A DNA stretch of 64,000 nt from Shinella kummerowiae. Its GTDB lineage: Bacteria > Pseudomonadota > Alphaproteobacteria > Rhizobiales > Rhizobiaceae. The translations under genes were made by a program, and so were the position numbers. Below are positions 22,132 through 44,296 of the stretch, piece after piece. How positions within the stretch are numbered: position 1 is the first letter of the stretch; each line of letters begins with the position of its first letter. Location: assembly GCF_009827055.1 (NCBI RefSeq), contig NZ_WUMK01000001.1, positions 620,001 through 684,000 of the forward strand, read 5' to 3'. A model generated the notes under the pieces. It was given only the letters and a program-made list of their open reading frames with translations, was not told the origin of the DNA and did no database searches.

Positions 22132-22142
22132 GGGTTATCGCG

Positions 22143-25822: not shown

Positions 25823-26040
25823 CAAGTCGTCGACAAGTCTCACCAGGCCACCTAACTTCCATCGAATCGAGTATTTCTCAAGATGAATGCACCCTATTGG
25901 TGTCAGCCAAATATTGGAAGATGGCGTTGAGCGAGAGCTGTATAGGTGCACAATCTACGAAAGTGGCGGAGCATCGCCGCAGCATTCTGCGCCAGAACAG
26001 CTTCCAGCGGGGTGCGACAGACAAGGTTTCGTTGGGACTA

Positions 26041-26529: not shown

Positions 26530-26587
26530 ATTCAGCCGGCGGAAAAAGACACCCGGCTTTCGGTCATGATGTTCGCGGGAGGACATC

Positions 26588-27190: not shown

Positions 27191-27307
27191 CGCAGGTCGC
27201 GTACCGAGTATGGATGCTCGTGAACATTTCCATGTAGGCGCGTGGCTTTGACTTGTGTTTTGAGAGCCATGCAATCAAGAATACGCCATCATCACCGGAG
27301 CATTTGC

Positions 27308-28755: not shown

Positions 28756-30671
28756 CCGAGACCTTTGTTGTCGGAGGGAAGAAGGTCAGCCTCGGGCCGT
28801 TGCTAGGCAAGGGCGGCGAAGGCGCTGTCTACAATGTCTCTGGCAACGCCGACATCGCCGTGAAAATCTACAACGACGGCAAGGCTCCCGAACGTCGCGA
28901 CAAAATCATGGCTATGGTGTCCGCTAACTTGTCGCGTACGTCCGACTATGTGGCTTTCCCACTCGAGGTCGTGACGCGTCAGAATGGCAAGTTCGCAGGC
29001 TTCTCGATGAAGAAGGTCGCGGGCTTCAAAACTGTCCATGACCTCTATGGTCCAGGGAGCCGCCGCACGGAATTTCCGACTGCGGACGTCCGTTTCCTTG
29101 TCCGGGCCGCCTACAACCTTTCTAGCGCCATAGCCAGCATCCATCGCTCGGGATGCGTCGTCGGCGACATCAACCACTCCGGTATTCTTGTCTCGACAAA
29201 GGCCTTGGTGACGCTCATCGACAGTGACTCTTTCCAGTTCAGGAACGGTGGGCAAACCTTCCGTTCTCTGGTGGGAGTTGCGGAATATACCCCCGCTGAA
29301 TTGCAGGGGGTCTCTTTCGAACGTACCGACCGAACTTCGAACCACGACGCCTTCGGTCTTGCCGTTCTACTGTTCCAACTTCTGTATCTCGGTAGGCACC
29401 CATACGCCGGACGCTATTCCGGCGGAGACATGGACATCAAGACTGCCATCGCGCAGAGGCGTTTCGCCTATAGCGACAGGCGTGCAGAAACGCAGATGGA
29501 GCCGCCGCCGCATGTGCCAGCCCTCAACGACTACGGCGATGAGGTCAAGGCCGCCTTCGAACGCGCATTCTCGCGCGCGGCTGAAACTGGTACGCGGCCG
29601 TCTGCGCTGGACTGGGTCGGAATCATTGATCGCTTGCAGACAAACCTCATCACCTGCGAAATCGACAAGTCGCATCATTACCATAAGTTCAAAGGCAGAT
29701 GTCCGTGGTGCAAGCTCGAAGCGGGCATCGGCCGATCACTGTTCACCGCCCAACTCGCGACGCCAACGCCATCGTCGATGGCCAACATCGGCCAGGTCAT
29801 AGCCCATATTGGCCGCATGAACTCGCCAGCCAACCCGCCGAGCGCCGAGAACGTCATGCCGCCCGTTCGGGACCTCAAGGTGTCAGCCGCGGCGCGCGGA
29901 AAGCGAAGTAGCAGAGGCATCGGCATGGTCAGCGCCCTCAGCGCCGCCGCCGCTGGCGCTTTCGTGACGTTCACCGTCCAACCACTTGTCGGGATCATCC
30001 TCACGGTGGGATCGCTTATCTGGTTTTTCAACGTCAAGAACCAGAGCAGCCCCTTTGAGACCGAATTGCGAACTGCGACGGCCGCATGGCACCAGCAGCG
30101 GCAATTATGGGAGAAACATGCAGGACCCGAGCATTTCAACGAGCGGAAAGCCCACTTCCTGACGCTTGCGGCGAACCACAGCGCCCTACCTCAACGCGAA
30201 CGTGAACGCCTTGAGGAACTCGACAGGAAGAAGCGCGATCTTCAGATGCGGAAGTACATGGAATCGCACCTTCTCGACCGCGCAAAGGTGCCTAGCATCG
30301 GCCCGGGGAGGAAGGCGACCCTCGCGTCCTACGGTATCGAGACGGCGTGGGACGCAAAATCAAAGCGGATCACCAATATTCCGGGGTTTGGCCCCGCTAT
30401 GCAGGAAAAGCTGAGAACATGGTCGAAGTCAGTGGAGCGCAAATTCGTTTTCAACGCCAACATCCCGACGGACCCACAGGCCATCCGCGAGGTGAAGACC
30501 GACATCGCGAGACAGCGGGCGGAGCTGGAACGTGACTTGCTTAAAGCCCCTGCGGAACTCCAGAAAATCTATGACGACGCCACGAAGCTTCGTGCCAACC
30601 CTCCTGCCAGCCTCGTCGAGGCCCACCGCAGGATGAAGCAGGCGGAGCTCGATTGCGGCAAGAAAATCTGA
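28752..30671 (+). CDS. Protein kinase with zinc knuckle, membrane pair and HhH domain (639 aa)
   Basis: GTG start overlapping the phosphatase stop. Kinase domain about 1-290: LLGKGGEGAVYNV glycine loop, IAVKIY lysine, CVVGDINHSGILVS in place of HRDxxxxN, and LIDSDSFQ in place of DFG, the usual variants of the TerY-P kinase group. A zinc knuckle follows (HHYHKFKGRCPWCK near 315), then two hydrophobic helices at about 395-430, a coiled-coil stretch and a helix-hairpin-helix region (about 515-560, RITNIPGFGPAMQEKLRTW). HhH suggests nucleic acid contact. Third member of the triad. Confidence 0.9.
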   Translation: MTETFVVGGKKVSLGPLLGKGGEGAVYNVSGNADIAVKIYNDGKAPERRDKIMAMVSANLSRTSDYVAFPLEVVTRQNGKFAGFSMKKVAGFKTVHDLYGPGSRRTEFPTADVRFLVRAAYNLSSAIASIHRSGCVVGDINHSGILVSTKALVTLIDSDSFQFRNGGQTFRSLVGVAEYTPAELQGVSFERTDRTSNHDAFGLAVLLFQLLYLGRHPYAGRYSGGDMDIKTAIAQRRFAYSDRRAETQMEPPPHVPALNDYGDEVKAAFERAFSRAAETGTRPSALDWVGIIDRLQTNLITCEIDKSHHYHKFKGRCPWCKLEAGIGRSLFTAQLATPTPSSMANIGQVIAHIGRMNSPANPPSAENVMPPVRDLKVSAAARGKRSSRGIGMVSALSAAAAGAFVTFTVQPLVGIILTVGSLIWFFNVKNQSSPFETELRTATAAWHQQRQLWEKHAGPEHFNERKAHFLTLAANHSALPQRERERLEELDRKKRDLQMRKYMESHLLDRAKVPSIGPGRKATLASYGIETAWDAKSKRITNIPGFGPAMQEKLRTWSKSVERKFVFNANIPTDPQAIREVKTDIARQRAELERDLLKAPAELQKIYDDATKLRANPPASLVEAHRRMKQAELDCGKKI

Positions 30672-30675
30672 CTAA

Positions 30676-30703
30676 CTAGGCCAAGTACGAAGACCTGGCC
30701 TAG
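30676..30703 (+). terminator. Inverted repeat after the TerY-P triad, weak terminator candidate
   Basis: CTAGGCC, 14-base loop, GGCCTAG. No T-run follows on either strand. It lies between the convergent kinase gene and the unknown gene at 30732. Confidence 0.3.
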
Positions 30704-30731
30704 AGGCGCGCCGGCTCCGCAGAACGCGGCC

Positions 30732-31565
30732 TCACTCGATAACGGCGAGCTTACCTTCGGAGCTGACTTCAAGCGGCAAGCCTGTCCAGTCCGCTGTATC
30801 GAGGAGCGACTGATCGCAATGGTCCGCAGCAGCCAGCTCTGTCGAGAAGAGGAAAACGCTCGCCGATATCGGCTTCCCGAGATTGGCTACCGGGAGCTCC
30901 GCTTTCAGTCCAAGTTGTTTAGTTTCCTGCCTGAACGTGGCGCGGAGCGTTACCGTTTCGTTTTTCATGGTTAGCGGCGTTCCATGCAGCGTCGCGATGA
31001 CGTAGAGGGCGAGAAAGGTCTTTGCTTCGCAAAACCTGATCGCATCGGCGTCATCAAGATAATCATGGAATTTGAGGACATGGACGAGGTCTTCCATAAG
31101 CGAAACGTCCGTAAATGCGACGTTCCAGATAAATGTCCGCCCTAGATAATTCAGTACCCGACGCTCCTTGTCTTTGAGAACGCCGCCGTCTTCAGCTTTG
31201 CTAAGTGCCGTCTTCAGTGCCGCTTTAGCCTGCCCCTTGTCGAGACCGACCGCGTCCTTGATTTGCTTCTCCGTGGCGACCCTCAATGTCGCCTGCACGG
31301 CCTCTTTGATGTCTTCAAGGCTCGGCGTTATCCCGTTCTCTGTCAAAAGCCAGTGTCGGCAGCTCAAGAGCATATCCCTCGCCCGATCTGTGACTTCACC
31401 TCTGCCGCGTTCCTCTCTGTGCGCGATGAAATCGCCGACATCGCGGACGCTGAGCCGCCCGCAATGGTGGGTGCGGAAAAACAGGAAGATATTGACGAAG
31501 TCTTCGTGCCGACCTTTCCCCCGCGCGATCCGATCTACACGCCGCTTGATATCCGTATTTCGCAT
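30732..31565 (-). CDS. Unrecognised soluble protein divergent from OLD nuclease (277 aa)
   Basis: ATG start at 31565 (MRNTDIKRRVDRIARGKGRH) preferred over a GTG nine codons upstream. The N-terminal 70 residues are basic and helical with FVNIFLFFRTHHCGRLSVRD. The middle holds several charged helices, including KDAVGLDKGQAKAALKTALS. The C-terminal third is beta-rich. No enzyme motif, membrane helix or family recognised. It sits between a TerY-P triad and an OLD gene, so a part in defence is possible but only by location. Confidence 0.65.
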   Translation of the reverse strand: MRNTDIKRRVDRIARGKGRHEDFVNIFLFFRTHHCGRLSVRDVGDFIAHREERGRGEVTDRARDMLLSCRHWLLTENGITPSLEDIKEAVQATLRVATEKQIKDAVGLDKGQAKAALKTALSKAEDGGVLKDKERRVLNYLGRTFIWNVAFTDVSLMEDLVHVLKFHDYLDDADAIRFCEAKTFLALYVIATLHGTPLTMKNETVTLRATFRQETKQLGLKAELPVANLGKPISASVFLFSTELAAADHCDQSLLDTADWTGLPLEVSSEGKLAVIE

Positions 31566-31804
31566 TTCACTGTTCCACGCTAACGCGGCCACACACAGCC
31601 AGGCCGACTAATCACTATGAAACCGGGAAGCCGGCGAGCGATGCAACTCCAAAAAATGCCCGATGTTAACCGAGTGTCGGACGATGCTCACAGCGCGCTT
31701 CAATTCGGTTGAGCGCGAGTTCAAGGTATTTATTTTTCGTGATCCTAAGTTGCAGTACCGCCCGTTTTCGCCTTAAACTTAGAATGTTGTTGGAGGATCG
31801 CCAG

Positions 31805-33817
31805 TTGAAGCTTTCGAAGGCCCGCGTCACGGATTATCGCAGCGTAAAAGATTCCGGCTGGATCGATTTCGAACAGTCGAAGACTATCATGGTCGGCCCG
31901 AACGAGGCAGGCAAGTCGGCGATTCTAAGAGCGCTCCAGCAAATCAACGCGCCTTCGGGTACTGCAAAATTCGACGTCCTCCGTGACTATCCGCGCAAGG
32001 ATTACAACGACATCACTACGCAAAAAGTGGACCCGGCGACGACGGTCGTGGTCATCGCTCACTTCACCCTTGATGCTGACGACAAGGCTTCGATCGACGA
32101 AGACTTTCGACAAGCGACTTACGTATTCACTAGGTACTTGGACAATACGTACAACCACACCTTCGAAGGCGGTCCGGAGCGCCCAACCACAGAGGGCATC
32201 GCCAAGGACTTGCAGCGACTGGCAGCGCATATAGACACGCGGCAGAAGGACGACGAAGAAAAATCCAGCACACTGTTGGAGACGGCACTGGCCAAATGGT
32301 CTGGTGGAAACTATTGGCTTCAGGGGGATATTGCCACGGCGGTATCGACTTGGTTGACGAAACACCTGCCGCTCATCGACGAGGCTAACGAAACTGAAGA
32401 GGCGCGGTACGACAAGCTCCTGAAGTTGACGAAGTTCGCGGCTCGACGGGATGCCGCTCTTCAGGCCCTTATGAAGGCGATCCCAGTTTTCGTGCTGTTT
32501 TCAAACTACTATCGCGTTCGACCGCTTATTCATCTCGATCACCTGGCTACGCGTATCGAACAGAAGCTGCTGGATGACGACCAGTATGACTATGGAAACG
32601 AGTGCTTGCTGAAATTGCTCGGCTTTACGGCGCGCGAGCTTTCCACGCTCGGACGAGCGCCCGAACCAAGTGCTGCGGATCACGATGCGCTGAAGAAATA
32701 TAGAGACCAACTCGATCAACGTTCCTACCAACTGAACGCCGCAAGCGTCAAATTGACGTCGGAAATCGTGAACATTTGGAATCCAAACCCGGATCGAGCC
32801 GAAGCCAACCGACTAAGGATCACCGCAGACGGCCAGTATCTCAAGGTGGTCGTCGAAGACGAGTTGGGTGTCGAGATCGAGTTGGATCAACGTTCAGAAG
32901 GCTTCCAATGGCTAGTGTCGTTTTTCGTGGTGTTTTTCTCGGAGACTGCAGGGAAGCATGCCAATGCGATCCTTCTCCTTGACGAGCCAGGAATGAGTTT
33001 GCACGCGCTTAAACAGCGTGATTTCCGCGAGACAATTTCGAAGTTGGCGGAGGCGAACCAGACTGTCTACACCACTCACTCGCCGTTTCTCGTCGGCCCG
33101 GATGAGCTTGATCTGGTTCGAGTCATTGAAATGAAAGATCGTCGAACCGGAACCAAGGCCCATACGACGATTACCGCCGCCGACCCCGCTGCACTCCTGC
33201 CTCTGCAGGAAGCATTAGGCTACGATCTCGCACAGAGTCTCTTCGCCCAGCAACGTAACCTCATACTCGAAGGCCTCACCGACTTCTGGTACATTGAGGC
33301 GACGGCTGAGATGCTACGGCAGGAAAGCATTGCCGATCTGAATTCCAAGATTGCACTCGTACCGGCTAATACGGCCAGTAAGGTGGTTTATTTCGCGACT
33401 ATCTTGGTTGCCCATAATCTAAAGGTCGCGGCGCTCCTCGACTCTGATAATGCTGGTGATCAAGCCGCGAAGCAGGATGTCCTCGTTCATAGATTGGGCG
33501 CGAAACGTATCTTGCGAACTACGGACTTCACAGCTCCTCCTATCCCCAAGGCCGAAATTGAGGACTTGCTCCGCGATACGCTTGTCAAATTGGCGGCGTC
33601 AGACCTCGGGATCGATATTTCGGCGGAGGTTACCGCATCGCCGACCACTCCGGTGATTGACCTATTGACGAGGAAAGGAGGGGCCAATTTTTCAAAATAT
33701 AAATTGGCAAAAGCCTACGTAAAATGGACAAGAGATCACTCATCGGCTGATCTAAGCGAAGCCGAGCGGAATGGCTGGTCGAAGCTGATAAACGCGATAA
33801 ATGCGGCTTTGAAATAG
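31805..33817 (+). CDS. OLD-family ATPase-TOPRIM nuclease (670 aa)
   Basis: TTG start chosen because GGAGG lies 8 bases upstream and the protein then opens MKLSKARVTDYRSVKDSGWI; an ATG seven codons upstream is the alternative. ATPase half: Walker A MVGPNEAGKSAILRAL at about 35-50, DQRSEGFQWLVSFF, Walker B AILLLDEPGMSLH and YTTHSPFLV. TOPRIM half: LILEGLTDFWYIEA (Glu) and AALLDSDNAGDQAAK (D-x-D). Class 1 OLD proteins are nucleases acting in phage defence. No UvrD-like helicase follows, so it is not a Gabija pair. Visibly more A+T-rich than its neighbours. Confidence 0.9.
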   Translation: MKLSKARVTDYRSVKDSGWIDFEQSKTIMVGPNEAGKSAILRALQQINAPSGTAKFDVLRDYPRKDYNDITTQKVDPATTVVVIAHFTLDADDKASIDEDFRQATYVFTRYLDNTYNHTFEGGPERPTTEGIAKDLQRLAAHIDTRQKDDEEKSSTLLETALAKWSGGNYWLQGDIATAVSTWLTKHLPLIDEANETEEARYDKLLKLTKFAARRDAALQALMKAIPVFVLFSNYYRVRPLIHLDHLATRIEQKLLDDDQYDYGNECLLKLLGFTARELSTLGRAPEPSAADHDALKKYRDQLDQRSYQLNAASVKLTSEIVNIWNPNPDRAEANRLRITADGQYLKVVVEDELGVEIELDQRSEGFQWLVSFFVVFFSETAGKHANAILLLDEPGMSLHALKQRDFRETISKLAEANQTVYTTHSPFLVGPDELDLVRVIEMKDRRTGTKAHTTITAADPAALLPLQEALGYDLAQSLFAQQRNLILEGLTDFWYIEATAEMLRQESIADLNSKIALVPANTASKVVYFATILVAHNLKVAALLDSDNAGDQAAKQDVLVHRLGAKRILRTTDFTAPPIPKAEIEDLLRDTLVKLAASDLGIDISAEVTASPTTPVIDLLTRKGGANFSKYKLAKAYVKWTRDHSSADLSEAERNGWSKLINAINAALK

Positions 33818-33853
33818 CTATATACCCCGCAGAATCCGCGAGCAGAAATCGTA

Positions 33854-36001
33854 CTAGAGGGGTTTGCTCCGCTTCCTCCACCACTCCCTTGTCTTCGCAT
33901 TCTGCCGCTCCGTGGCCTCCTTGACCATTCCGTCGAAGACGTCGAGCATTTCCTTTATCGCGGCGACGTAATCCTCGGTATTGAGATCGAACCAGAACTT
34001 GTGCCGCTCACCGCGGGCGCTCAGGTTGATGTGAATTTCTCCGAAGCTTGGATCGAACTGGAAATGCGCCGACAGGCCCCTGTTCGAATTCCAGACCCGC
34101 TGGCCTGACGGCGGCAGCTTCGGCGGGAAGATCAGGTACGGGCAGGTCTTCGCAGCCTCGGGAACGATGATCTCCCAGAACCTGTTCACTCTATCGTCTT
34201 CCAGAATGGTAGGATCGGCCTCTAGGCCGTACACCCGCATGACGTCTGCCCGTTTGAAGACGGTGTCGACGTGCTTGCCGCCCTTCACGAACTTCACCAC
34301 GGGATCGACCCCTTCCCGCTTCATCTTCCAGCTGACCGCATGTCCCGAGATGCCCATGCCGTGGCCGAAATCCGAAGCCTTGGCGTGACTGGCCGCGAAA
34401 TCTTCGACGGCCTTTCTCGAAATCAGGACCTGGCGCGGGCTGGCTTCGACCTCCCCGAGATGGCCATGCTTCACGAGAATCTGGGTCGTCTCGTACGTCA
34501 TGTTAAGGAGCGCCTGCGCCTCGCCCATGGTCATCGTATCTTCGGACCTGGTGAACGATTGGCGCTTCCGCTTGGCATCGGTCTGGACCATCAACCGCTT
34601 GAAGCCCGGAACGTTGTCCCGCTTCTCGCAGATCACGATCTCACCCTTGAGGCAGGCGACCGCGACGGCACCCGGAACCAAGCCGTTGCGAACACGATAG
34701 GTGTGAAGCGTCAGGCCGTAGGCAGGCGAGCCGGTGACGGGCAATTCGTCGATAAGCCTGAGGACGGTGTCGATCTGATCAGGCGAGTACCGACCCCCGC
34801 TCCGTCGGCCAGGCCTCAGATTCGTGAAGACCTTGAGATAGCCTGCGTGGACGAGATGGCGGATGGCATCCTGATTGATGCCAAGCCGTCGTGCGGCTTC
34901 CGAGATCGGGACAAGCGTTTCCTTGAACCCGGCGATGGTTTCCACGGCATGCGCGGCAACCGTGCGCCGCTCTCGGGTCTTCTGGAGGACGCCCACCTCC
35001 TTGGCGAGCTGCTCGACCGCACGGGGACCGATACCGAGGGTTTGCGCGATTTCCAGTCGCGGCATGAACTCGATGTCGAAGTCTTCGTCACGGACACGGC
35101 GATCATATCGCTCCGTCTCGAATACCGCAGCCTCGTGGAAGGCACGGCGGACCGTCAACCTTAGGCTCTCCGGCAGGAAGTTGAGTTTGGGGTAGCCCCA
35201 GCTGAAATGCGCCGCGACGCCGCGGGCCTTGTGATTTCCCCTGTACTTGCGGTGCCATTCCCTCATGAGCTCCGCAAGGTCGCCGCGATCACCGGACAGA
35301 GCGCGAAAACCCACGTCGGCGGAGTGTGTGCCGACGGGCGGGTGTTTACGCGAAGGCGGGTTCTCGAGAAACCTGCCGACAAACTCGCAGTAATCGATGA
35401 CATCGGGGATCGGGATGGCATCCAGCAATGGCGCACTGATCGGCTGGAGCCAGCCAAAGCGGCCGAGCAGGTATCGAGCGAAAGGCGCACCGTCGTCACG
35501 GCGAGGCAGCTGGCGGCCGAGCGCAAAGCCGTCGCGGGAATATCCGAAGCCAAGCCAAGTCCATGGGACTTGCGCGCCGCCTTCGTCGCGAGTCTCGAGC
35601 TCGACGCAATGGATCGGGCAGTGTCGGATGGATTCGACCTCCCACCATCCTCGATGATGAGAGGATTCATGGATGCAGCCAGGGCACCAGCGCCGTGGCT
35701 CGAACCGGATGTGATGGTAGGGCAAACCATGTCCGCGGAGGACATAGCCATCGCCGATACGGAGCGGCGTGTTGAATCGGAGGAGCTTAAACCAGTCGGT
35801 CGGCATGGGATGGCGCTCAAGCGCTTCCATGAGCTGGTTTGTGGCGACCCGGTTAACCTCCAGATCGTTCCAGTTCGCGAAGGTTGTCATGGTGACCGAG
35901 CCTTCCAGCTCGGCCAGCCGCATGAAAAACCCATGGGCGGGTTCGTCGACAGCCGGAGTTGCGTCCCACCTGGAAAATACGAGCGTCTGAATGAACGCCA
36001 T
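33854..36001 (-). CDS. tniQ: TniQ/TnsD-family target-selection protein, oversized (715 aa)
   Basis: The ATG lies one base after the tnsC stop; it begins MAFIQTLVFSRWDATPAVDE. TniQ domain at about 10-150 with GFFMRLAELEGS and a zinc finger RRWCPGCIHES...RHCPIHCVELE. Further on come two or three helix-turn-helix or MerR-like units (ISEAARRLGINQDAIRHLVH at about 330; MTMGEAQALLNMTYETTQI at about 470) and a beta-rich C-terminus. In Tn7, TnsD binds the attachment site and recruits TnsC. At 715 residues this is longer than Tn7 TnsD (about 508), consistent with an extended DNA reader. Confidence 0.88.
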   Translation of the reverse strand: MAFIQTLVFSRWDATPAVDEPAHGFFMRLAELEGSVTMTTFANWNDLEVNRVATNQLMEALERHPMPTDWFKLLRFNTPLRIGDGYVLRGHGLPYHHIRFEPRRWCPGCIHESSHHRGWWEVESIRHCPIHCVELETRDEGGAQVPWTWLGFGYSRDGFALGRQLPRRDDGAPFARYLLGRFGWLQPISAPLLDAIPIPDVIDYCEFVGRFLENPPSRKHPPVGTHSADVGFRALSGDRGDLAELMREWHRKYRGNHKARGVAAHFSWGYPKLNFLPESLRLTVRRAFHEAAVFETERYDRRVRDEDFDIEFMPRLEIAQTLGIGPRAVEQLAKEVGVLQKTRERRTVAAHAVETIAGFKETLVPISEAARRLGINQDAIRHLVHAGYLKVFTNLRPGRRSGGRYSPDQIDTVLRLIDELPVTGSPAYGLTLHTYRVRNGLVPGAVAVACLKGEIVICEKRDNVPGFKRLMVQTDAKRKRQSFTRSEDTMTMGEAQALLNMTYETTQILVKHGHLGEVEASPRQVLISRKAVEDFAASHAKASDFGHGMGISGHAVSWKMKREGVDPVVKFVKGGKHVDTVFKRADVMRVYGLEADPTILEDDRVNRFWEIIVPEAAKTCPYLIFPPKLPPSGQRVWNSNRGLSAHFQFDPSFGEIHINLSARGERHKFWFDLNTEDYVAAIKEMLDVFDGMVKEATERQNAKTREWWRKRSKPL

Positions 36002-36002
36002 G

Positions 36003-36956
36003 TCAGGCCGCCTTCTCGAACGGGTAGGTGAGGTCGCCCGTCCGCTTGCGCAGGAAACATGCCTCGCGAAGATGACGACCCTGGATACAGGGCGACCCGT
36101 CGTAGATCGCCTGTCGTGCCGCATCGATCACGATGTTCATGGTCAGACCGACTGACCCCCTCGCGGCAAGCCTCCACTCGGTTTGCCATTCTTCGCGATC
36201 GAGAATGGAATCTTCGGCGAACGGGAGCCTGTTCGAGACACCGATCAGAAATCCGAGATAATCGTCGATCTCGTCGGTAATCGACATGTCATGCTCGGCG
36301 AGATGGACCGTAGGAAATGATCCGCGGTTGAGATGCTGGGCCTCGTTGAGCATCGAGCCCTCGATCGTATAGAGGCCCGCCAGCCAGACGGAGCAGGAAC
36401 CGCTGTCTGCCAACGCCTTGATCAGGGAGAGAATGGAACGCCGTTTGGCTGGCGGAGCCGAGAAAATGTAGTGGGCATCGTCGAAGACCACGAGAGGCGT
36501 TCCATGGGTCGCCACCCGTCGCACGCATTTCGCCTCAAGAGACTTACCACCGATGTACGGGACGGAAGACGCTCCCGTCGCTAGGAAGAGAGCCGACGCG
36601 ACATCCGGCGCTCCCCAGCGCTCCATAACCGGGATGTAGGCCATCGGGAATACATAGCCGGAGCTATCGTCAACCCGATAGGGTTTGTTCTCCCGCAGCA
36701 GCGTCTTGAGCATGAAGCTTTTGCCTGCACGGGAGTTTCCGAGGAACCCGGCGATCTGGCCCACAATGGGAGCCCCCTGCTGACCGGGCCGATGGAGCTT
36801 TTGAAGGCGGGCGAAAGTCTGGTTGAAGCGAGGATAGCGGTACAGGAGATTTTCGACCATCCGCTGACGCGCCGCCTCAGGAAGCCTAAGCATCTCACGG
36901 CGAGCCTCGCTATCGTTGGCAAAGGAAATTTCGTGGAAGTCCGGGAGGATGATCAT
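36003..36956 (-). CDS. tnsC: TnsC/TniB-family AAA+ transposition regulator (317 aa)
   Basis: AAA+ ATPase: Walker A GFLGNSRAGKSFMLKT at about 70-85, Walker B TPLVVFDDAHYIF at about 150-162, and a C-terminal GLTMNIVIDAARQAIYDG lid region typical of TniB/TnsC. TnsC forms ATP-dependent filaments on DNA and links target selection (TniQ) to the transposase. Shorter than Tn7 TnsC (555), closer to TniB size. The start overlaps the tnsB stop in ATGA, so translation is coupled. Confidence 0.9.
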   Translation of the reverse strand: MIILPDFHEISFANDSEARREMLRLPEAARQRMVENLLYRYPRFNQTFARLQKLHRPGQQGAPIVGQIAGFLGNSRAGKSFMLKTLLRENKPYRVDDSSGYVFPMAYIPVMERWGAPDVASALFLATGASSVPYIGGKSLEAKCVRRVATHGTPLVVFDDAHYIFSAPPAKRRSILSLIKALADSGSCSVWLAGLYTIEGSMLNEAQHLNRGSFPTVHLAEHDMSITDEIDDYLGFLIGVSNRLPFAEDSILDREEWQTEWRLAARGSVGLTMNIVIDAARQAIYDGSPCIQGRHLREACFLRKRTGDLTYPFEKAA

Positions 36957-39352
36957 TCATCAAATCCTTTCTTGGCAAGGCGCTCGCGCAATGCGGCGCG
37001 TCTGTCTGCTTCGGTGATCAGCGGGGCTTCCACGGGCGCGACGGCGACGGAAACCGGACCGGAGGGCTCGGTGCGCGGAGTACCGCGCCTCTTATGTTCG
37101 GCTACAGCGTCCTCGAGGGGATCGCGCTCCACGATCTCGCCATCAGCCGTCTGGCTGACTAGGGCTGCAGGCGTGCCGTCGCGGCCCCTGCCCGGGCGGT
37201 TGGGAGATTTGGTACGGGCAGGTCCGGGGCTAAACGGAGCTGCGAAATCCAGATGGTCGGCACTCGCCGCCTCGCTCTCGACCACGTTTACGATGGCCGA
37301 ACGCTTGAGCTTTCTCGTAACCTGGCTCTGGAACTTCGCGAGCGCCTGAGCGGTCCGCTGGAGCTTCTTCTTGTCGAGGAGTTTCGAAAGCTCATCCGGA
37401 AGGGTGCGCCTCGCAAGCTCAAGCGACTCGATCGTGATCGGCTTGCGTTTGAAGACCTTGTTATGGTGTTCGATGATCTTGCGATGCACGAACAACCGGA
37501 GGCCGTCCGCATACTTCGCACACCGCCCGTTCGGTCGCAGTCTGATGACGCGATCACGTCGATAGGGGTTCGTGATGAAGGCGTTGGAAAGATCGGACGG
37601 ATCGACGGTCAACTCATATTCCGTGCCAGGCTTATGGTTCGGATGAGCCGTGATTTCGAGAAGGTCCTCAGAGTACCAGGTCAGGTGCTTGTAGGTGACG
37701 CCGTCGTTCTGGATCGTCACCTTGCGCCGATGTCCACCGAGCGAGACGAAGATTTCCGGATCGATCGGGTCCCTCGGCGGCATGTTCTTGAGGTCTGCGT
37801 CCCACACATCCTGGGGAATGGCTTTCAAGCGCGGCGTAAGACCGATGCCACGGCGCGGAGTGCGGTGGTATTCGACGATCCAGAGCGTGATGAAGTCCTC
37901 CAATTGCTGGAGGCTGATCATCGGCAGGCCGAGGCCCTTGGCGTCGTCGAAAAGTCTTCGGCGCTCGACGTTCGACATTGTCGTGCCGGGAAGCAGGTGA
38001 AAGACCTGTGTGTTGAGCGTGCGGAACATGCGCTCGACCAGACCCTTGCCGGTAGGCTCCCCCGGAAGGGTCTCGATGATCTCGAAACCGATCTCTTCCG
38101 ACGCGCGCTTGATGTCCTCGCCCCGTAGAAACGTGGCGTTGTCGGACGGAATAGCCATGAAGTCGCCGTACTGCGCCCACTCAGCGCCCGGGAAGCGGGA
38201 CATGTCCTTGGGATAAAGCGCCATCCGCAAGCCGTAGAGAAAGGCCTCATAGCTCTGGTTGTCGAAATGGACCGCGAAACCGAGGATGCACCCGCTTTTC
38301 TTCGAAACGAAAAACAGGACACTGGGACGGCCGAAGAGGCACATGTTCTCGGCGTCGTATACGCAGATATCCGCTGTCGTGTAATCGACCTCGACCACGC
38401 TTAGGCTATGGTCGGGCAAATCCCTGTGCGTGTAGAAGGTATGCTTTCGCCGCGCCGCTTCGATCCCGTAGCGCCACAGGTCTTTCGAATAGTTGTCGGG
38501 AGCCGCGAAACGACGTTCGATAGTACGGAAGCTCGGCACGTTGAGTGTTCCGTCCGGGAGCTCGATCTCCTTGAGAAGCTGCCGGTTCTCCCTTTTCGCA
38601 AGTTCCAGTTTGAACTGACTTTCGACGTTCAGCGCCGTGCCGGCGGGCAGTTCCCAGGCCCACTGAACGCAGTCGTCTAGAATGTCTTCGATCCGGGGAT
38701 CAAACTTCCGGATGGGATTTCCGGACGAATGCTCGGAAACAAGAGCCAGAATTCGGTTGAACGGATTGGCCTCGTACTTCTTGAGCCAGATACGGAGGGA
38801 ATTGTAGCAGGGTGTTTTCTCGTGACCCTTCTCGCGTGCGTGGTTGGCTGCCACCTCGAGGATCAGCTTCTTGGTGAGCCGCACCTTGCCACCTTCGCGG
38901 GCGAGGACGAGCTTGCGCGCATACCACCATCTCTTGATGGCCTCTGCGCGCCGCTCCCGAGGGATGGAAAGATAGCTCCTGACCTTTGGACGCTCGGTTG
39001 GGGCGATTTCACGCTTCGCCGCGGAGTTGATCGGAACAAGCCTCCACTCGCGTTCGAGAATGCTGATCTGCCAATCCGACAGGAACGTCGTCTCGTTCGT
39101 GTCGGTGTTCTGGACCAAGAATTTCTCGCCGCCCAAACCATAGGAGTTTCGGGAGAGCACGGCGCAGTTCGCAACCCGGCGACGGTCGGGGTCGAAGATC
39201 ATGAACTGCGATCCCATGGCGAAGTTATAGCGCTGTGCCTGGTGTTTTCCTCCGTTGACAGGATGAGGGGGAACATCGAGTTCTGCGAAGCTGGACGCCG
39301 GGTTGAGTGCCCCCTTCGTCAGGAATACGCTCTTGTTGTGCATGAAGGACAT
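36953..39352 (-). CDS. tnsB: TnsB/TniA-family DDE transposase (799 aa)
   Basis: Start MSFMHNKSVFLTKGALNPAS chosen because it shares one base with the tnsA stop (TGATG); an upstream extension overlaps tnsA. N-terminal DNA-binding helices about 100-260. RNase H catalytic core with all three acids: VVEVDYTTAD (about 320), MAIPSDNATFLRG (about 404) and GKGLVERMFRTL (about 439). A Mu-type beta-barrel follows (VTIQNDGVTYKHLTWYS), then a disordered, Pro/Arg-rich C-terminal tail that in TnsB contacts TnsC. It cuts and joins 3' ends. Appears intact. Confidence 0.95.
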   Translation of the reverse strand: MSFMHNKSVFLTKGALNPASSFAELDVPPHPVNGGKHQAQRYNFAMGSQFMIFDPDRRRVANCAVLSRNSYGLGGEKFLVQNTDTNETTFLSDWQISILEREWRLVPINSAAKREIAPTERPKVRSYLSIPRERRAEAIKRWWYARKLVLAREGGKVRLTKKLILEVAANHAREKGHEKTPCYNSLRIWLKKYEANPFNRILALVSEHSSGNPIRKFDPRIEDILDDCVQWAWELPAGTALNVESQFKLELAKRENRQLLKEIELPDGTLNVPSFRTIERRFAAPDNYSKDLWRYGIEAARRKHTFYTHRDLPDHSLSVVEVDYTTADICVYDAENMCLFGRPSVLFFVSKKSGCILGFAVHFDNQSYEAFLYGLRMALYPKDMSRFPGAEWAQYGDFMAIPSDNATFLRGEDIKRASEEIGFEIIETLPGEPTGKGLVERMFRTLNTQVFHLLPGTTMSNVERRRLFDDAKGLGLPMISLQQLEDFITLWIVEYHRTPRRGIGLTPRLKAIPQDVWDADLKNMPPRDPIDPEIFVSLGGHRRKVTIQNDGVTYKHLTWYSEDLLEITAHPNHKPGTEYELTVDPSDLSNAFITNPYRRDRVIRLRPNGRCAKYADGLRLFVHRKIIEHHNKVFKRKPITIESLELARRTLPDELSKLLDKKKLQRTAQALAKFQSQVTRKLKRSAIVNVVESEAASADHLDFAAPFSPGPARTKSPNRPGRGRDGTPAALVSQTADGEIVERDPLEDAVAEHKRRGTPRTEPSGPVSVAVAPVEAPLITEADRRAALRERLAKKGFDE

Positions 39353-40146
39353 CAGTCTTCCCTCCCCTTCGCGCTCGACACGTGGGAGGTCTTTGTCACT
39401 GTCGACGCAAATGAAATCGGCTTGGAGATGTCCACCTTCACCTCGCCTGCCACCGCAAGCCACATCAATGCCGAAAAGGCTCGCTTCACCTCCGGAAGCG
39501 GGCGGAACTGTGCGGCCGTGCCGTCGTTTTCGAAAAAGACATGCACCCTCCCCGGCAGGGCAGCCGCATCCGAGATCATCTGGATGGTGGATTGCGATGG
39601 GAGAAGGGACAACGCGCGGCGGACGGCTGTAACCGCTTCATCGTCATGTCGATATGCGTGGTAGCGGATCGTCGCCAGGTTCATCATCCGCGGCTGGATG
39701 TGGAGACTGCTCTCGTCGAGAACCGCATACGTCGCCCGGTATTGCTCCCAGTATACGCCCTTCAGCGTACTCGTTTGATGCTCCATCCATTTCCGCTCGT
39801 CCTGCATGGCGAGCGGGATGATGTCGAAGAAGCTGGCCTGCTTCTGTTTGCTCCAGACACCGACCATCGGGATATGGCTGGCGGACGAGACGACGCCGTT
39901 CCAATCCGAAACCTCATACTCGAGCTTGATCGGATAGGCGCTGATCCTGACGACATCGGGATTGGTTTCAAAGTGAATGAGCGCGTCGCGCATGAGCGTC
40001 GAGCGAGCCCTGATCGACTTCTGGGCGGCTTTGCGCGTCGGAAACGACACCGGAATTTCCTGACGCTTCTGGCTTTTGGCCACCTTGACCAAGGGAACGT
40101 GATCGTCCCCGAAGCCGAAGAACGTCATAAGCTGTTGTTCGTTCAT
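39352..40146 (-). CDS. TnsA-like protein with lost catalytic residues (264 aa)
   Basis: GGAGG lies 6 bases before the ATG. Pattern alignment to Tn7 TnsA by eye: STLMRDALIHFETNPDVVRI falls on the helix with catalytic Glu63 (here Met), SASHIPMVGVW on the Asp114 strand (here Met) and FFDIIPLAMQDERKWMEHQT on the Gln130-Val-Lys132 strand (here Asp-Ile-Ile). The flanking QDER and later YWEQ agree well with TnsA, so homology is likely but the nuclease centre is gone. It may serve only as a structural partner of TnsB. Without 5'-strand cutting, transposition would be replicative. First gene of the coupled operon. Confidence 0.72.
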   Translation of the reverse strand: MNEQQLMTFFGFGDDHVPLVKVAKSQKRQEIPVSFPTRKAAQKSIRARSTLMRDALIHFETNPDVVRISAYPIKLEYEVSDWNGVVSSASHIPMVGVWSKQKQASFFDIIPLAMQDERKWMEHQTSTLKGVYWEQYRATYAVLDESSLHIQPRMMNLATIRYHAYRHDDEAVTAVRRALSLLPSQSTIQMISDAAALPGRVHVFFENDGTAAQFRPLPEVKRAFSALMWLAVAGEVKVDISKPISFASTVTKTSHVSSAKGRED

Positions 40147-40221
40147 CTCTTGCCTCCAGACATGGCTCCGCCGACGCCGATGTTCGTGATCGGCGGAATG
40201 TCCACGGATTGGGTGAAAGGC

Positions 40222-40371
40222 TCAGCAGTCGGTGGAAGGATCGTCTTCGTACAGATGTCCCTGCCACTCGCGCATCAAATCGGCGATCGTGATGCACTCG
40301 CCGCCGAGTGAATCGAGTTCAGCGGCCCTAAGGGGGCGTGACGTGGAAATGGTGTGTTCGGTGATGAACAT
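40222..40371 (-). CDS. Possible 49-aa protein upstream of tnsA
   Basis: MFITEHTISTSRPLRAAELD, ending REWQGHLYEDDPSTDC. GGAG lies 9 bases before the ATG, and the frame ends 75 bp before tnsA on the same strand. Too short to assign. It could be a small regulator or a leader peptide of the transposition operon. Confidence 0.4.
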   Translation of the reverse strand: MFITEHTISTSRPLRAAELDSLGGECITIADLMREWQGHLYEDDPSTDC

Positions 40372-40780
40372 GGCGCACTTCTCCTCTCCCGCCGACGCGC
40401 AGTCGAGCGGGCTACGATGAACTGTGGGGAGAGACACGCACCTCGGAGCGCGTGCCTTTGCGGTCAAAGTTCGGAGAGGTCAGAGGGACCGCCGAACTGC
40501 ATGCAAACGACTACAATCTGCCGATGGCAGTCATATTCGCTTGTCTATGTGCAGTCCGAAGGCGGTCATGGGATCATCCCGTGTTGGGGAAACGGCATTG
40601 CTCATCGTTTCCGTTCTCGGTTTGTACCGGACGAATTCGGTAAGTCAACCGGGCCCCGCCCGCCGGACTGCAGATTTTTTCAGATTAGATGGCTGTCGGT
40701 TTGGAAAAATCCGTTGACAGGACGGGACCAGCCGGCAAGACTGAACCAGTTACTCTTCGCAATGGGTAGCAACCAAAGTG

Positions 40781-40814
40781 ACGGGCCGACCTGTTCAGAG
40801 GTTGGCCCGTTTTT
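40781..40814 (+). terminator. Strong orphan rho-independent terminator
   Basis: ACGGGCCGACCT, six-base loop, AGGTTGGCCCGT, then TTTT. The stem has one mismatch. The T-run is on the plus strand only, yet no plus-strand gene ends here. A TTGACA box at 40714 suggests a short transcript may end at it. Confidence 0.75.
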
Positions 40815-41125
40815 GCTTTTATATGCATGTGGATCATCTCCGTTCCCGATGGATCACAAGTACGAGTGCATTGAGAGCGTGCGAGTTTGAACTTGCAAGA
40901 AATTTCTTGTGGAGGGTGTTCCGCGGATTTTAGTTTAAAAATTTAAATTCGCACGTCTTCGGAGACATTCTTGGGAAAAGCCACCGACTGACATTTCTTC
41001 AGAATTCCCGTTCGAACTATCAAAATTCCGGATGTCTTCAATTTCTAATTTCTCGCCACTTCGAATTTCATCGGATATTGTCGATTACGCTTGGAGATAC
41101 AGCCTCTTCAAAAAAAATAGACCTG

Positions 41126-41147
41126 GGCCCCTAGACAGGGCCGATTT
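41126..41147 (+). terminator. Hairpin with flanking A- and T-runs, possible bidirectional terminator
   Basis: GGCCC, seven-base loop, GGGCC, then GATTTTTG. An A8 run lies just to the left (41110-41117), so the minus strand also ends in T's. It sits 115 bp before the TnsA-like start, where it could insulate that gene from upstream transcription. Confidence 0.5.
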
Positions 41148-41261
41148 TTGTTCTATTTTCGTTCTCCATGAAAACCGACCTCCACACAGTCTCGCGAATA
41201 CGATGAAGTCTTGTCAGCCATGAGGGCTGACGGTCATCGACGATATTGTGGAGTCTGTTGC

Positions 41262-41879
41262 ATGCGTGTTTCTCGTCAAACCGAAATCCTGGACGTCGCG
41301 AAGGCGGCTCAGGCACGGTCCTCCTTCTTCCCGCGCGCCACGGTCAAGAGCGACGGCCCGGTCACGTTTCGGTCTCAGGCAGCGCGTGACATCGCTTGCC
41401 TTTTCGACGTGGACCCCGAGGTCGAAACCTGGACCTGCGATCCACCCTTCCTCTCCGTTGGCCCGGAATTCCACGTCTGCGATTTCCTCGTCTGCCACGT
41501 CTCCGGGCAACGTCTTCTCGTGGACGGATTCGATCGCACTGAGACGCCCGATCCCGTCGTCCTCGAAGCCGCAGCCGCCGAGGCAGGATTCCGGTACAAG
41601 CGCCCGCCCAGGATCGAGGTCTATGGCGGGACGAGACTCCGCAACGCGAAAGACCTGCTGCGCTACGGAAACTACCAGGCAACCCTCGGGGATCGGGTCC
41701 GGCTTCTGGCGGCGCTGGAAGAACACGGATCGCTCACGGTCGCGGAATGCCTGACCGCGTTCTCGGAAACCAGATCGGTGGCCGGGTTGGCGTCGATGAT
41801 CCTGAACGGCTTCGTGGAAGTCGACCTCGACGACGAACTGATCGGGCCCACGACAGCGGTGAGACGGATAGCGCGCTGA
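41262..41879 (+). CDS. Second TnsA-like protein, partly degenerate (205 aa)
   Basis: The ATG at 41262 has GGAG 8 bases upstream (MRVSRQTEILDVAKAAQARS); a 17-codon extension is open. A TnsA-type fold is suggested by VTFRSQAARDIACLFDVDPE (catalytic Glu position is Ala), EFHVCDFLVCHVSGQRLLVD (Asp kept, Lys position not Lys), then YKRPPRIEVYGGTRLRNAKD and a winged-helix end (ALEEHGSLTVAECLTAF...ILNGFVEVDLDDE). It is not a copy of the tnsA-operon protein. 39 bp before the AAA-M41 gene on the same strand. Confidence 0.6.
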   Translation: MRVSRQTEILDVAKAAQARSSFFPRATVKSDGPVTFRSQAARDIACLFDVDPEVETWTCDPPFLSVGPEFHVCDFLVCHVSGQRLLVDGFDRTETPDPVVLEAAAAEAGFRYKRPPRIEVYGGTRLRNAKDLLRYGNYQATLGDRVRLLAALEEHGSLTVAECLTAFSETRSVAGLASMILNGFVEVDLDDELIGPTTAVRRIAR

Positions 41880-41918
41880 CGTCAGCCGTTTCCGTCATCG
41901 TTTTCAGAGGGATTTTGT

Positions 41919-43892
41919 ATGCGTAACCAAACCGACGTCGATGTTCATGACTTCACGCATGGCAGGCGGCGCACGCGCGACCTGTCGCTATCGACCCAGT
42001 TAGCCGTGATTTCGTTGTTGCGGGTGTTGAGGCCGTTAGTCCATAGGTCACGTCGCTTCGTTGCCACGATCGTCGTGCCGGAGGACGCTAACGTCCACGA
42101 CTATGCGGTCGCTGCCCACTGGATCATGGAGAACCCGCGGGCCGACGGAATCCCGATGAAAGTCCATTATGACATCCTGGCGCTAACCGACAGGGAAGAC
42201 TTCAGGACCTCCGTAAAGCTTTCCAGGACAAGCGAAATCCGCAGGGCTATCGTCCTGATGGAGAGCAAGGCGACGCTGAATGCGGATGCACGTCTCGCAT
42301 CCGATCTGGTCGCAATCCTGCCGCCGACGTCCGGCGAGGACATCAAGATCGCCGCTCTCAGAATGGGATTTGGTAGGATCAGCGACGAAGACGCCGAATT
42401 CCTTAGTGGACACAGCCTGGCCAGCCTCACCATGGCCATGCGAGCGGGGCGGCCGATTGGCAACGCGATCGCACGGCTGAAAGCGCATCTCACTGATACG
42501 AAAGAAGAGCAGCCGCTGGCGGTCGTTCTACCTTTCCCCGATAAGCCTACCCTGCATGACCTCCCCGCTTATGGCGATGCCAAAACTTGGGGTCTCGAAC
42601 TGGCCGCCGACATCGCAGACTGGAAGGCTGGTAAGCTGTCCTGGGCAGATATCGATCACGGCATCCTTTTGTCTGGACCGCCGGGAACGGGAAAGACCTC
42701 GTTCGCCACAGCACTCGCGAACACCTGTGGCATGACGCTCGTAGCCGCATCCGCCGCCCGCTGGCAGGCCAAGGGACATCTGGGCGATTTCCTTAAAGCC
42801 ATGCGGTCGGCATTCGACAAAGCGAAAGCCAGCTCGCCCTCTATCCTCTTTATTGACGAGTTCGATAGCTTCTCCGCTCGCGAAGAATATAGCGGCGATA
42901 GCGCCAGCTATTCCCGCCAGGTCGTGAATGGCCTTCTGGAATGCCTGGATGGAATCGACGGTCGCGATGGCGTTGTGGTAGTCGGAGCGACGAACTTTCC
43001 CGATTTGGTTGACCCCGCTCTTCTCCGGCCCGGCAGGCTCGATCGTCAATGCGTCATTCCCCTCCCCGACGCCGCCGGCCGACGTGACATCTTCAGATAT
43101 CACCTTGGCAAAGACCTGAGGTCACGGAACATCGATATCGCCGTCAAAAATTCGAGGGGCTGGACCGGTGCGGATATCCAGCGTGCAACCCGCGACGCGA
43201 AACGGGCGGCCAGACGCGCGGGTCGCGAGATGGAGATGGACGACTTGCTTTCGGCAATGCCGGAACGAGTGAAGTTGCCACCCGAGGTAATCGAGTCCGT
43301 TGCCATCCACGAACTGGGACATGCTCTCGTAAGTTTGCATTACGAATCCGATCCTCTCATGTATGTCACCATCGAAGACACGGTGTCACCAAACGCGAAG
43401 CTTGCGACGCTCGGTGGCGCGCACTTCAAAGAGCCGCCGATCCGGCGGAAGACTTCGACGTATTTCGAGAACCGGATCGCGATGCTCCTGGCAGGGATGG
43501 CTGCCGAACGCCTCGTGTACGGAGATCACTCGATTGGATCGGCCGGCGACCAAAAGGCAGACCTCAATATCGCAACGGACCTCGCCACTATGATGGAAGT
43601 GACGTGGGGCCTTGGACGATGGATGGTATCCGAGTCGATCAGCACGCCTGAGGCGCTCGCCGCCGTAAGAGGTCGGCGGCCTGAATTGGGAGACATCGTG
43701 GAGTCTACGCTTCGGAAACAGTTCGAGCGCGCGACGGCCATTCTGGAGACGCGCCGAGACCTACTTCGGGCGTTGGCGAAATCTCTGGTCGAAAAGAAGA
43801 CTCTGTCGGCGGAGGAGATCGCCGCTGCGGTCGAGAATCATGAGCGGGAGATCGGTCGCGGAGAGCCAACCCTGATCGTATCGAGTTCATGA
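41919..43892 (+). CDS. Soluble FtsH-like AAA+ ATPase with M41 metalloprotease domain (657 aa)
   Basis: Starts MRNQTDVDVHDFTHGRRRTR. Residues 1-240 lack the two transmembrane helices of FtsH and form an unknown domain. AAA+ module: Walker A ILLSGPPGTGKTSFATAL (about 247-264), Walker B SPSILFIDEFDSF (about 306), VVGATNFPDLVDPALLRPGR and an RLDRQ arginine finger region. M41 protease: IHELGHALVSLH (H-E-x-x-H, about 461) and the distal Asp in DQKADLNIATDLA (about 545). All catalytic parts look intact. Together with the TnsA-like gene before it, it may remodel or degrade a transposition complex, as ClpX does for Mu; that is inference. Confidence 0.85.
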   Translation: MRNQTDVDVHDFTHGRRRTRDLSLSTQLAVISLLRVLRPLVHRSRRFVATIVVPEDANVHDYAVAAHWIMENPRADGIPMKVHYDILALTDREDFRTSVKLSRTSEIRRAIVLMESKATLNADARLASDLVAILPPTSGEDIKIAALRMGFGRISDEDAEFLSGHSLASLTMAMRAGRPIGNAIARLKAHLTDTKEEQPLAVVLPFPDKPTLHDLPAYGDAKTWGLELAADIADWKAGKLSWADIDHGILLSGPPGTGKTSFATALANTCGMTLVAASAARWQAKGHLGDFLKAMRSAFDKAKASSPSILFIDEFDSFSAREEYSGDSASYSRQVVNGLLECLDGIDGRDGVVVVGATNFPDLVDPALLRPGRLDRQCVIPLPDAAGRRDIFRYHLGKDLRSRNIDIAVKNSRGWTGADIQRATRDAKRAARRAGREMEMDDLLSAMPERVKLPPEVIESVAIHELGHALVSLHYESDPLMYVTIEDTVSPNAKLATLGGAHFKEPPIRRKTSTYFENRIAMLLAGMAAERLVYGDHSIGSAGDQKADLNIATDLATMMEVTWGLGRWMVSESISTPEALAAVRGRRPELGDIVESTLRKQFERATAILETRRDLLRALAKSLVEKKTLSAEEIAAAVENHEREIGRGEPTLIVSSS

Positions 43893-44220
43893 GTTTGATC
43901 CGGGGTCTTTAATTCTGCTTGAAGACCTCGGGTCTTCGAGTTTGGCCACGCCACGGCAGATCGTCGTAACCGCAGCAGTCGGCTGCGGCATCTCGATCCA
44001 AGCGCCTTGAAAACCGGCTGCAATATCGCCTCTCCGGTCGTCAAGTAGGCGGAACCGCTCACCGAGATTCAAAAATTAGTTAGTTCTTTAAATAGTTTAG
44101 GCCGAACAGAGCGCTGTTCGGCCTTTTTCGCGTTCGGTCACGGATTGCGCAATCGGATGCGAGACAGTTCAGAGGTTGATGGCGGCCGGATCAAAGGATC
44201 GTGGCGGCCAACAACAGAAA
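43893..44220 (+). other. Junction between island and tRNA-Ile2, no gene
   Basis: 328 bp with no supported gene. It holds the terminator at 44099, an inverted repeat GAAGACC-TCG-GGTCTTC (43921-43937) and a 12-bp perfect palindrome GATTGCGCAATC (44143-44154). The island end should lie here if the element inserted beside the tRNA. No clear terminal repeat could be fixed by eye. Confidence 0.5.
44099..44128 (+). terminator. Rho-independent terminator
   Basis: AGGCCGAACAG, AGCG loop, CTGTTCGGCCT, then TTTT. An 11-bp perfect stem. On the plus strand it ends the AAA-M41 transcript; it may also stop read-through from the tRNA side. Confidence 0.85.
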
Positions 44221-44296
44221 TGGTGGGCCCGGAGGGACTCGAACCCCCAACCAAGCGGTTATGAGCCGCCGGCTCTAACCATTGAGCTACAGGCCC
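44221..44296 (-). tRNA. tRNA-Ile2 (anticodon CAU)
   Basis: The minus strand reads as a full 76-nt cloverleaf with encoded CCA. Acceptor GGGCCTG pairs with CGGGCCC, the D stem is GCTC/GAGC, the anticodon loop is CTCATAA and the T loop is GGTTCGAGTCC. The anticodon arm GGCGG-CTCATAA-CCGCT followed by TGG resembles E. coli tRNA-Ile2 (GGCGACTCATAATCGCTTGG) rather than elongator or initiator Met. The C34 would be changed to lysidine by TilS to read AUA. Its 3' end faces the accessory island. Confidence 0.92.

Follow-up and report, generated by a model that had tools for sequence, protein, structure and literature searches.

A TnsA-fold protein and a soluble FtsH-type protease form a two-gene unit inside a Tn7-like element of Shinella kummerowiae

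The 64,000-nucleotide stretch of Shinella kummerowiae DNA analyzed here (the window) contains part of a Tn7-like transposon in which two adjacent genes, termed T and M, lie between tnsA and the right end of the element. T codes for a protein with the TnsA fold and M for an FtsH-type AAA+ and M41 zinc metalloprotease that is devoid of membrane helices. The T-M unit recurs beside Tn7-like elements in several bacterial families, and its linkage to tns genes is far above chance. At slightly less than even confidence, we regard T-M as an accessory immunity module in the right-end slot of Tn7-like elements; this reading is ranked above control of the element's own transposition, followed by the exclusion of rival elements and, last, by an active nuclease governed by M.

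Structure and conservation of the T-M unit

T was matched by no Pfam family and, at E ≤ 0.1, by none of the PADLOC models. The NCBIfam model NF033179 (“TnsA_like_Actin”) yielded an E-value of 6e-7 and 29.1 bits, below the cut-off of 110 of this curated TnsA family, and 50 of the 61 aligned members of the T family match it at E ≤ 0.001. An AlphaFold2 model calculated from the 61-row alignment showed a mean predicted local distance difference test (pLDDT) score of 93, and the only PDB structures returned for it by Foldseek at E ≤ 0.001 are TnsA proteins: the top match 9bw1_M (E 4e-6), which is TnsA in the TnsABCD transpososome, and 1t0f_A (E 1e-4) from the TnsA/TnsC crystal structure. The predicted structure therefore comprises both parts of the TnsA fold, a nuclease-like domain and a winged helix. 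As the template modeling (TM) scores over the query are only moderate (0.52 for 9bw1_M and 0.49 for 1t0f_A, with root-mean-square deviations of 11.0 and 6.4), the model indicates that these domains are arranged somewhat differently from those of TnsA. The remaining, weak Foldseek matches were mostly winged-helix proteins. Profile comparison by hhalign connected T to the family of the element's own TnsA (probability 95, E 2e-8) and weakly to another TnsA family (A9; probability 22), and a direct BLAST of T against the TnsA of the operon gave nothing significant; the relation is visible by profiles and folds alone. A sequence relationship of T to solved proteins was considered and rejected, as phmmer found none and a profile search returned chance-level matches only.

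In the 61-row alignment, which is centered on Rhizobiaceae, Asp43 and Asp74 are conserved in all rows and Asp88 in 60 of them, and a Lys is found at positions 86-91 in none. Asp43 is aligned with what we take to be the catalytic Glu of TnsA, a correspondence that, like that of the Lys, is presumed from the motif and not derived from a structural residue alignment. On this assignment, the Glu-Asp-x-Lys set is incomplete, with Asp at the Glu position in 61 of 61 rows. The most conserved stretch of T is formed by residues 125-150 (mean top-residue frequency of 0.77 vs. 0.49 for residues 20-124), and N128, D131, D144, and R145 are invariant. In distant families, several T proteins match the T profile in the C-terminal half only. 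For three of them (L149, L152, and L155 of family f34, all encoded in tandem with M), the alignment, which is rough at 12-24% identity, shows a gap at the PDF aspartate, suggesting that selection may act on a function other than that of a nuclease. In summary, T resembles TnsA of Tn7 in its two domains and its profile match, but departs from it in the active site, even further so in distant members, in being encoded in addition to a proper tnsA, and in its coupling to a protease.

M is matched by the Pfam families AAA (6e-33) and Peptidase_M41 (5e-18). Over 48 aligned rows, all catalytic residues are invariant, namely K259 of Walker A, D313-E314 of Walker B, R370, R373, the H464-E465-x-G467-H468 motif, and D548. 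The N-terminal membrane helices of FtsH are missing: the highest mean hydropathy over 19 residues is 1.31, and the threshold for such windows is 1.6. Seventeen of the 48 relatives of M possess a window of at least 1.6, and the eight highest of these peak in the AAA/protease core (six) or in the N-domain (two). The structural model of M (pLDDT 87.7; predicted TM-score 0.65) displays an alpha/beta N-domain, and its best Foldseek matches are FtsH. Thus, M shares both domains and all catalytic residues with FtsH, but differs from it in the lack of transmembrane helices, in its own N-domain, in a score of 202 bits against the curated FtsH family, far under the 600-bit cut-off, and in its sporadic and mobile occurrence. 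M probably acts as a hexamer in the cytosol. Among the PADLOC models, M matched AAA-type models only, with IetA as the best (8e-28).

The stop codon of T (41879) and the ATG of M (41919) are separated by a gap of 39 nt on the same strand. A scan of a collection of 84,980 species seeded with T matched 121 stretches and yielded 116 relatives, of which 80 were kept; together with the window they form the core set of 81 loci. Of 77 loci not truncated by a contig end, 73 carry M next to T on the same strand (four more loci are truncated), and T-M is therefore a true two-gene unit beyond chance. T is found next to no countable M in L098, L127, L128, and L133, and in L128 and L133 a short open reading frame (ORF) of the same similarity cluster, perhaps a broken M, directly follows T. 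The evolutionary distances of T and M correlate with r = 0.81 (30 linked loci). M without a recognizable T also exists (L033-L035, L159, L160, and L163), within a survey that was seeded with T. Immediately downstream of M, a calcineurin-like phosphoesterase, which may be a third component, is encoded in 13 of 95 loci; in the window this gene is absent, as no ORF of 80 or more amino acids lies between M and the right end. No relative of T-M was present among 50,697 phage records, nor was one encoded by the seven viral-contig stretches that matched the search pattern, and a phage origin was accordingly rejected.

Another candidate for a third component, a subfamily of PIN-domain proteins mostly of about 175-250 amino acids, was found near T-M or upstream of tnsA (e.g., L122 9196-9738, L131 8737-9333, and L159 2102-2713). 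Thirty of 95 loci contain the PIN cluster. Many of the best matches to the family lie near T or tnsB, as judged with a profile that was itself built from PIN genes beside T (members 29-71% identical to the first row). A search of the genome of the window with this profile revealed no gene of this PIN family.

These results bear out the initial annotation of the region, which had described a TnsA-like protein and an AAA+/M41 protease, 39 bp apart and divergent from the transposition operon. Its coordinates, strands, and spacing were right, and so was its view of T as a TnsA-like fold plus winged helix in which the Asp is kept and the presumed Glu and Lys positions are changed. The full Walker and HExxH motifs and the absence of membrane helices that it attributed to M were likewise recovered.

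The host element and its attachment site

The T-M genes are oriented divergently from the minus-strand tnsA-tnsB-tnsC-tniQ array (40146 to 33854) of an element of 45,653 bp, which is inserted at a tRNA-Met gene and extends from G000:C1:618561 to 664213 (window position 44213; Table 1). It is identified as a Tn7-like transposon by the presence of tnsB, tnsC, and tniQ/tnsD in one array, by TGT...ACA ends with repeats of about 22 bp, and by the 5-bp duplication ACAGA that flanks it on both sides. Inverted counterparts of the right-end repeats are located 1.4 kb to the left of the window on the same contig. In addition, a relative (G003, locus L056) exhibits the empty site, where the left flank of the element joins the tRNA flank with a 5-bp overlap. 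As the ends, the target duplication, and the empty site were all found, the T-M pair is part of the element, in which it occupies the tnsA-to-right-end interval, with the stop codon of M 321 bp away from the terminus. For the window, the same findings led us to reject that the pair lies outside the element or is a neighbor by chance. End repeats between tnsA and T-M were also considered and rejected, since only weak repeats occur there.

Table 1. Positions of the T-M genes and of the features of their host element in the window
Feature	Coordinates	Strand	Description
T	41262..41879	+	TnsA-fold protein, 205 aa; degenerate nuclease-like domain (~20-124) and C-terminal winged helix (~125-203)
M	41919..43892	+	FtsH-type AAA+/M41 zinc metalloprotease, 657 aa, no membrane helices; alpha/beta N-domain (~20-195) replacing the membrane part of FtsH
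tnsA of the element's operon	39352..40146	-	NF033179 8e-5; no recognizable Lys of the catalytic motif
tnsB (DDE transposase)	36953..39463	-	PADLOC TnsB 5e-19
tnsC (TniB/AAA regulator)	36003..36956	-	TniB 2e-8
tniQ/tnsD-type target selector	33854..36124	-	TniQ 3e-7; ORF as listed, true start may be further in
Right transposon end	44166..44213	+	Two 22-bp TnsB-type repeats (44166-44187, 44188-44209), terminal ...ACA at 44213
Target-site duplication ACAGA	44214..44218		Second copy at G000:C1:618556-618560
tRNA-Met(cat) gene, attachment site	44221..44296	-	Conserved flank starts at or next to the tRNA in 21/21 genus genomes, the window's own included
Tn7-like element, part inside the window	1..44213		Left end at G000:C1:618561, 1,440 bp before the window

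From about 44221 rightward, the sequence is common to all 21 genomes of the genus, the own one included. To the left of this position, stretches from 10 relatives hold no counterpart of the window except for a match to the tnsA region and one cargo match in G001. Consequently, the tRNA-Met gene is an insertion hot spot. G001 retains decayed remains of tnsA/tnsB at this tRNA-Met (L049 13066-14748), with no T or M in the 18 kb examined. The same layout, repeats, and tRNA-Met as in the window were found in Pseudorhizobium pelagicum (L058; TnsB 67% identical), and in Shinella sp. H4-D48 (G008, L059) weaker repeats are situated next to the tRNA, beyond a SIR2-domain gene and the T-M pair. Among the linked loci, clusters of end repeats beside tRNA-Met are restricted to the window, L058, and L059, that of L059 being weaker (20.1). 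L107, which lies near tRNA-Met, has none, nine loci have clusters of 14-21 elsewhere, and the other linked loci have none; as a control, 1 of 15 shuffled sequences reached 18.5. Owing to this restriction, residence of T-M inside the element, which is established for the window and supported for L058 and L059, is only likely elsewhere.

The cargo of the element includes genes for a DNA polymerase III alpha (DnaE-like) and an ImuB-like Y-family polymerase, apparently a mutagenesis cassette (2538-7309), and for a Ku-domain protein (11530-12471). A further block (20790-30671) encodes a NYN/OST-HTH protein, AbiEii, an AAA/SMC-like protein with a Cap4-like nuclease, and a VWA-PP2C-kinase trio, and a gene for an OLD-like ATPase/TOPRIM protein (31709-33817) is located immediately past tniQ. 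The family of the element's own TnsA (seven aligned sequences; window 39352-40146) also shows no recognizable catalytic Lys, and elements of this type may therefore transpose with an altered TnsA.

Linkage to Tn7-like elements and genomic surroundings

A TnsB ORF was counted within about 10 kb on either side in 29 of the 81 T loci, and in 28 of these 29 the pair is situated on the tnsA side (binomial p 1.1e-7). The other 52 pairs have no counted tnsB within this distance, and 15 of these 52 have less than 6 kb on a side. Three loci classed as unlinked contain TniQ (L076, L088, and L119, the latter two also TnsC) and no countable TnsB. In L088 and the near-identical L119 (7-2489), tnsC-tniQ lies about 7.5 kb off and the pair is on the tniQ side, an exception to the usual position. 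When three linked loci from relatives were added, 31 of 32 pairs were on the tnsA side, 15 of them on the same strand and 16 divergent, and the distance from the pair to tnsB was at most 2.4 kb in 20 of 32, which leaves space for little beyond tnsA. The extended set of 84 loci (the window, the 80 scanned loci, and L021, L023, and L024, added as tns-linked, with the unlinked relative L022 left out) underlies the distance correlations, the 32-locus counts of side and orientation, and the count of linkage changes on the M tree, whereas the counts of 29/81 and 28/29 exclude the three additions. L017-L020 duplicate L059, L072, L122, and L121, and in one batch of 18 loci, G443, G454, and G246 were covered by a short match locus only.

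The frequency of linkage was not derived from the TnsB profile (A3), as this had been trained on tnsB genes beside T (plus L034, beside M only). Pfam TniQ served as an independent marker instead, with up to 15 candidates scored per genome. Among 247 sampled genomes of the family, 32 carry T, at a total of 38 loci when a split match is counted as one, and 66 carry TniQ. The distance to a TniQ gene is at most 15 kb for 13 of the 38 T loci vs. 0.36 expected at random, and at most 50 kb for 18 vs. 1.2. The expectation of 0.36 assumes random placement and islands cluster, so that this contrast is overstated; the one-sidedness toward tnsA is independent of it. A TniQ gene is present in 26 of the 32 genomes with T vs. 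40 of the 215 genomes without T (p 5e-12).

In three other families of the same order, TnsB lies within 10 kb in seven of 10 loci (L167, L168, L169, L171, L173, L175, and L176; not L170, L172, and L174), and T and M are in tandem in seven of 10 (not L172, L174, and L175). In six of the seven tandem loci (L167, L168, L169, L171, L173, and L176), a same-strand tnsB lies up to 10 kb downstream. The tnsA of L168 matches the Pfam TnsA N-terminal family. Family f34 (L167-L169 and L171; three genomes) carries two small ORFs between M and the tnsA-like gene, with no convincing Pfam match for the intervening ORFs (L168 11898-13012, L169 11407-12801, and L171 6867-8073). Among eight Tn7-like elements chosen for having no nearby T match, M without T is present in L159, L160, and L163, neither gene is found in the stretches examined of L161, L164, L165, and L166, and L162 ends too soon.

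Over the 30 linked loci, distances correlate with those of TnsB by 0.23 for T and 0.15 for M, and with those of TniQ by 0.31 and 0.26; these values are weak, yet above permutation (p 0.0005-0.007), and TnsB and TniQ correlate with each other by 0.87. On a tree of M with 73 labeled tips, from which ten unlinked loci with less than 6 kb on a side were omitted, tns linkage requires at least 17 changes compared to 23.8 ± 2.2 for shuffled labels, and none of 300 shuffles fell below 17. For this reason, the linkage is regarded as partly inherited, but has often changed. The weak correlations with TnsB and TniQ, the value of 0.87 between these two, and the repeated changes of linkage together suggest that T-M behaves as a fairly independent module.

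The surroundings of the pair are diverse. In stretches of about 49 kb from two complete plasmids, no tns gene is annotated within about 22-25 kb of the pair, based on an incomplete gene table. Annotated plasmid neighbors include a CBASS system with HORMA, DUF1837, a Kiwa-like system, an S8 peptidase with an ATPase, or plain metabolic genes; five further plasmid loci have no annotation. In the window, the immune-type OLD-like, Cap4, AbiEii, and NYN genes share the element with the pair, and a SIR2-domain protein occupies the same slot in G008. In some loci, the position on the tnsA side is taken by a PIN gene, a SIR2 protein, or a C5 methylase, which speaks for a cargo slot.

Possible functions of the T-M unit

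In the immunity reading, T-M would be an accessory proteolysis module, at home in the tnsA-to-right-end interval of Tn7-like transposons and resident elsewhere as well. T would be a TnsA paralogue turned into a catalytically dead adaptor, whose conserved winged-helix half holds M or DNA and whose variable nuclease-like half contacts the target. M, as a cytosolic FtsH-type machine bound to T, would unfold and degrade whatever T presents. Most likely, its purpose would be to render both the element and its host immune to competing mobile DNA, through destruction of an invader's nucleoprotein complex. The proposal draws on the constancy of the two-gene unit and the correlated T and M distances, the conservation of residues 125-150, the three distant T proteins matched in the C-terminal half only, the behavior as a fairly independent module, and the immune-type genes in the surroundings. 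Several observations weigh against it. General immunity does not predict the placement on the tnsA side, the tns linkage of seven of 10 distant loci, or the TnsA ancestry of T; PADLOC offers no model for T and only AAA-type models for M; the phage records and viral-contig stretches contain no relative; tns linkage shows stronger clustering on the tree of M than do shuffled labels; and some free copies reside among ordinary metabolic genes.

The main rival is a role of T-M in the control of its own transposon, a scenario that we consider rather unlikely. Here, T would dock on TnsB/TnsC in the manner of TnsA and deliver the complex to M, which would dismantle the post-transposition complex or limit the transposase. 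ClpX is known to act on the Mu transposition complex and TnsA to contact TnsC. The proposal is attractive because host ClpX aids integration by a type I-F CRISPR-associated transposon (CAST); ClpX is reported to improve integration when TnsB is wild type, and the hypothesis put forward is that it assists in taking apart the post-transposition complex (PMC12326709). TnsA paralogy, residence inside the element on the tnsA side, short distances to tnsB, and the tandem T-M genes with same-strand tnsB downstream in other families agree with such a role. It is at odds with the 52 of 81 pairs without a counted tnsB, the weak co-evolution with TnsB and TniQ, the near-equal numbers of same-strand and divergent pairs, the tniQ-side pairs of L088/L119, and the existence of Tn7-like elements without a nearby T. 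The initial annotation had offered remodeling of the transposition complex and a free-standing defense pair as alternatives. Its interpretation is partly supported. The outcome that it had named as a refutation, homologues located mostly apart from Tn7-like genes and from any TnsA-like gene, was not observed in the T-seeded neighborhood survey, in view of the constancy of the M neighbor, the excess of tns linkage, and the position of the pair inside the element. Of its two alternatives, the first gains from this linkage and from the position inside the element, but loses from the unlinked majority and the weak co-evolution. The free-standing option fits slightly better than a role in the element's own transposition, because of these 52 pairs, the two plasmids without annotated tns genes, and the weak correlation between pair and transposase.

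A related scenario, which we deem distinctly improbable, is the exclusion of rival Tn7-like elements: T would enter a foreign TnsABC complex as a TnsA decoy and M would destroy it, the copy in the element guarding the attachment site and free copies guarding the replicon. Such a function would explain at once why T has its ancestry in TnsA and an altered or lost active site, why the pair resides beside tnsA, why free copies exist, and why co-evolution with the element's own TnsB is weak. The enrichment of TniQ in T genomes is also in line with it, but several T genomes hold more than one TnsB or TniQ. Lowest in our ranking is T as an active, if unusual, nuclease that is held in check or activated by M in a toxin-antitoxin or effector pair. 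The three nearly invariant aspartates of T speak for it, as does the element's own TnsA family, which likewise has no recognizable Lys, so that an altered motif need not mean inactivity; the three distant tandem T proteins without the Asp region and the absence of Lys at positions 86-91 speak against it. A wider proposition, possible but on balance doubtful, is that Hyphomicrobiales Tn7-like transposons encode their own remodeling protease, in which a TnsA-paralogue adaptor and a soluble FtsH-type machine enter and destroy TnsABC complexes of the same element or of a rival, with free copies serving as domesticated guards against transposons.

No description of the T-M pair was found in the open-access literature searched, consistent with the initial annotation, which knew of no such system, and the main texts of two broad surveys of Tn7-like elements mention neither FtsH nor M41 (PMC8649781, PMC10293859). 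Of the known systems, IetAS defense consists of an AAA ATPase and a subtilisin-like protease. The AAA+ core of M resembles IetA, and both pairs follow a two-gene ATPase/protease logic; in T-M, however, the protease is an M41 domain fused to the AAA+ domain, and the constant neighbor of M is the TnsA-like T, not a separate subtilisin-like IetS. ClpX, in Mu and in the type I-F CAST, offers a parallel for the transposition-control proposal, as M too is an AAA+ unfoldase beside a DDE transposition system, but ClpX belongs to another AAA+ type and is supplied by the host, whereas here the element carries both the machine and a TnsA paralogue.

If T-M controls transposition, a transposase subunit would have been turned into a protease adaptor, and the pair would represent a transposon-borne counterpart to host ClpX. 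If T-M serves immunity, as we tentatively favor, it would constitute a two- or three-gene module for whose T component PADLOC has no model, and Tn7-like elements would possess, between tnsA and their right end, a slot with recurrent cargo.

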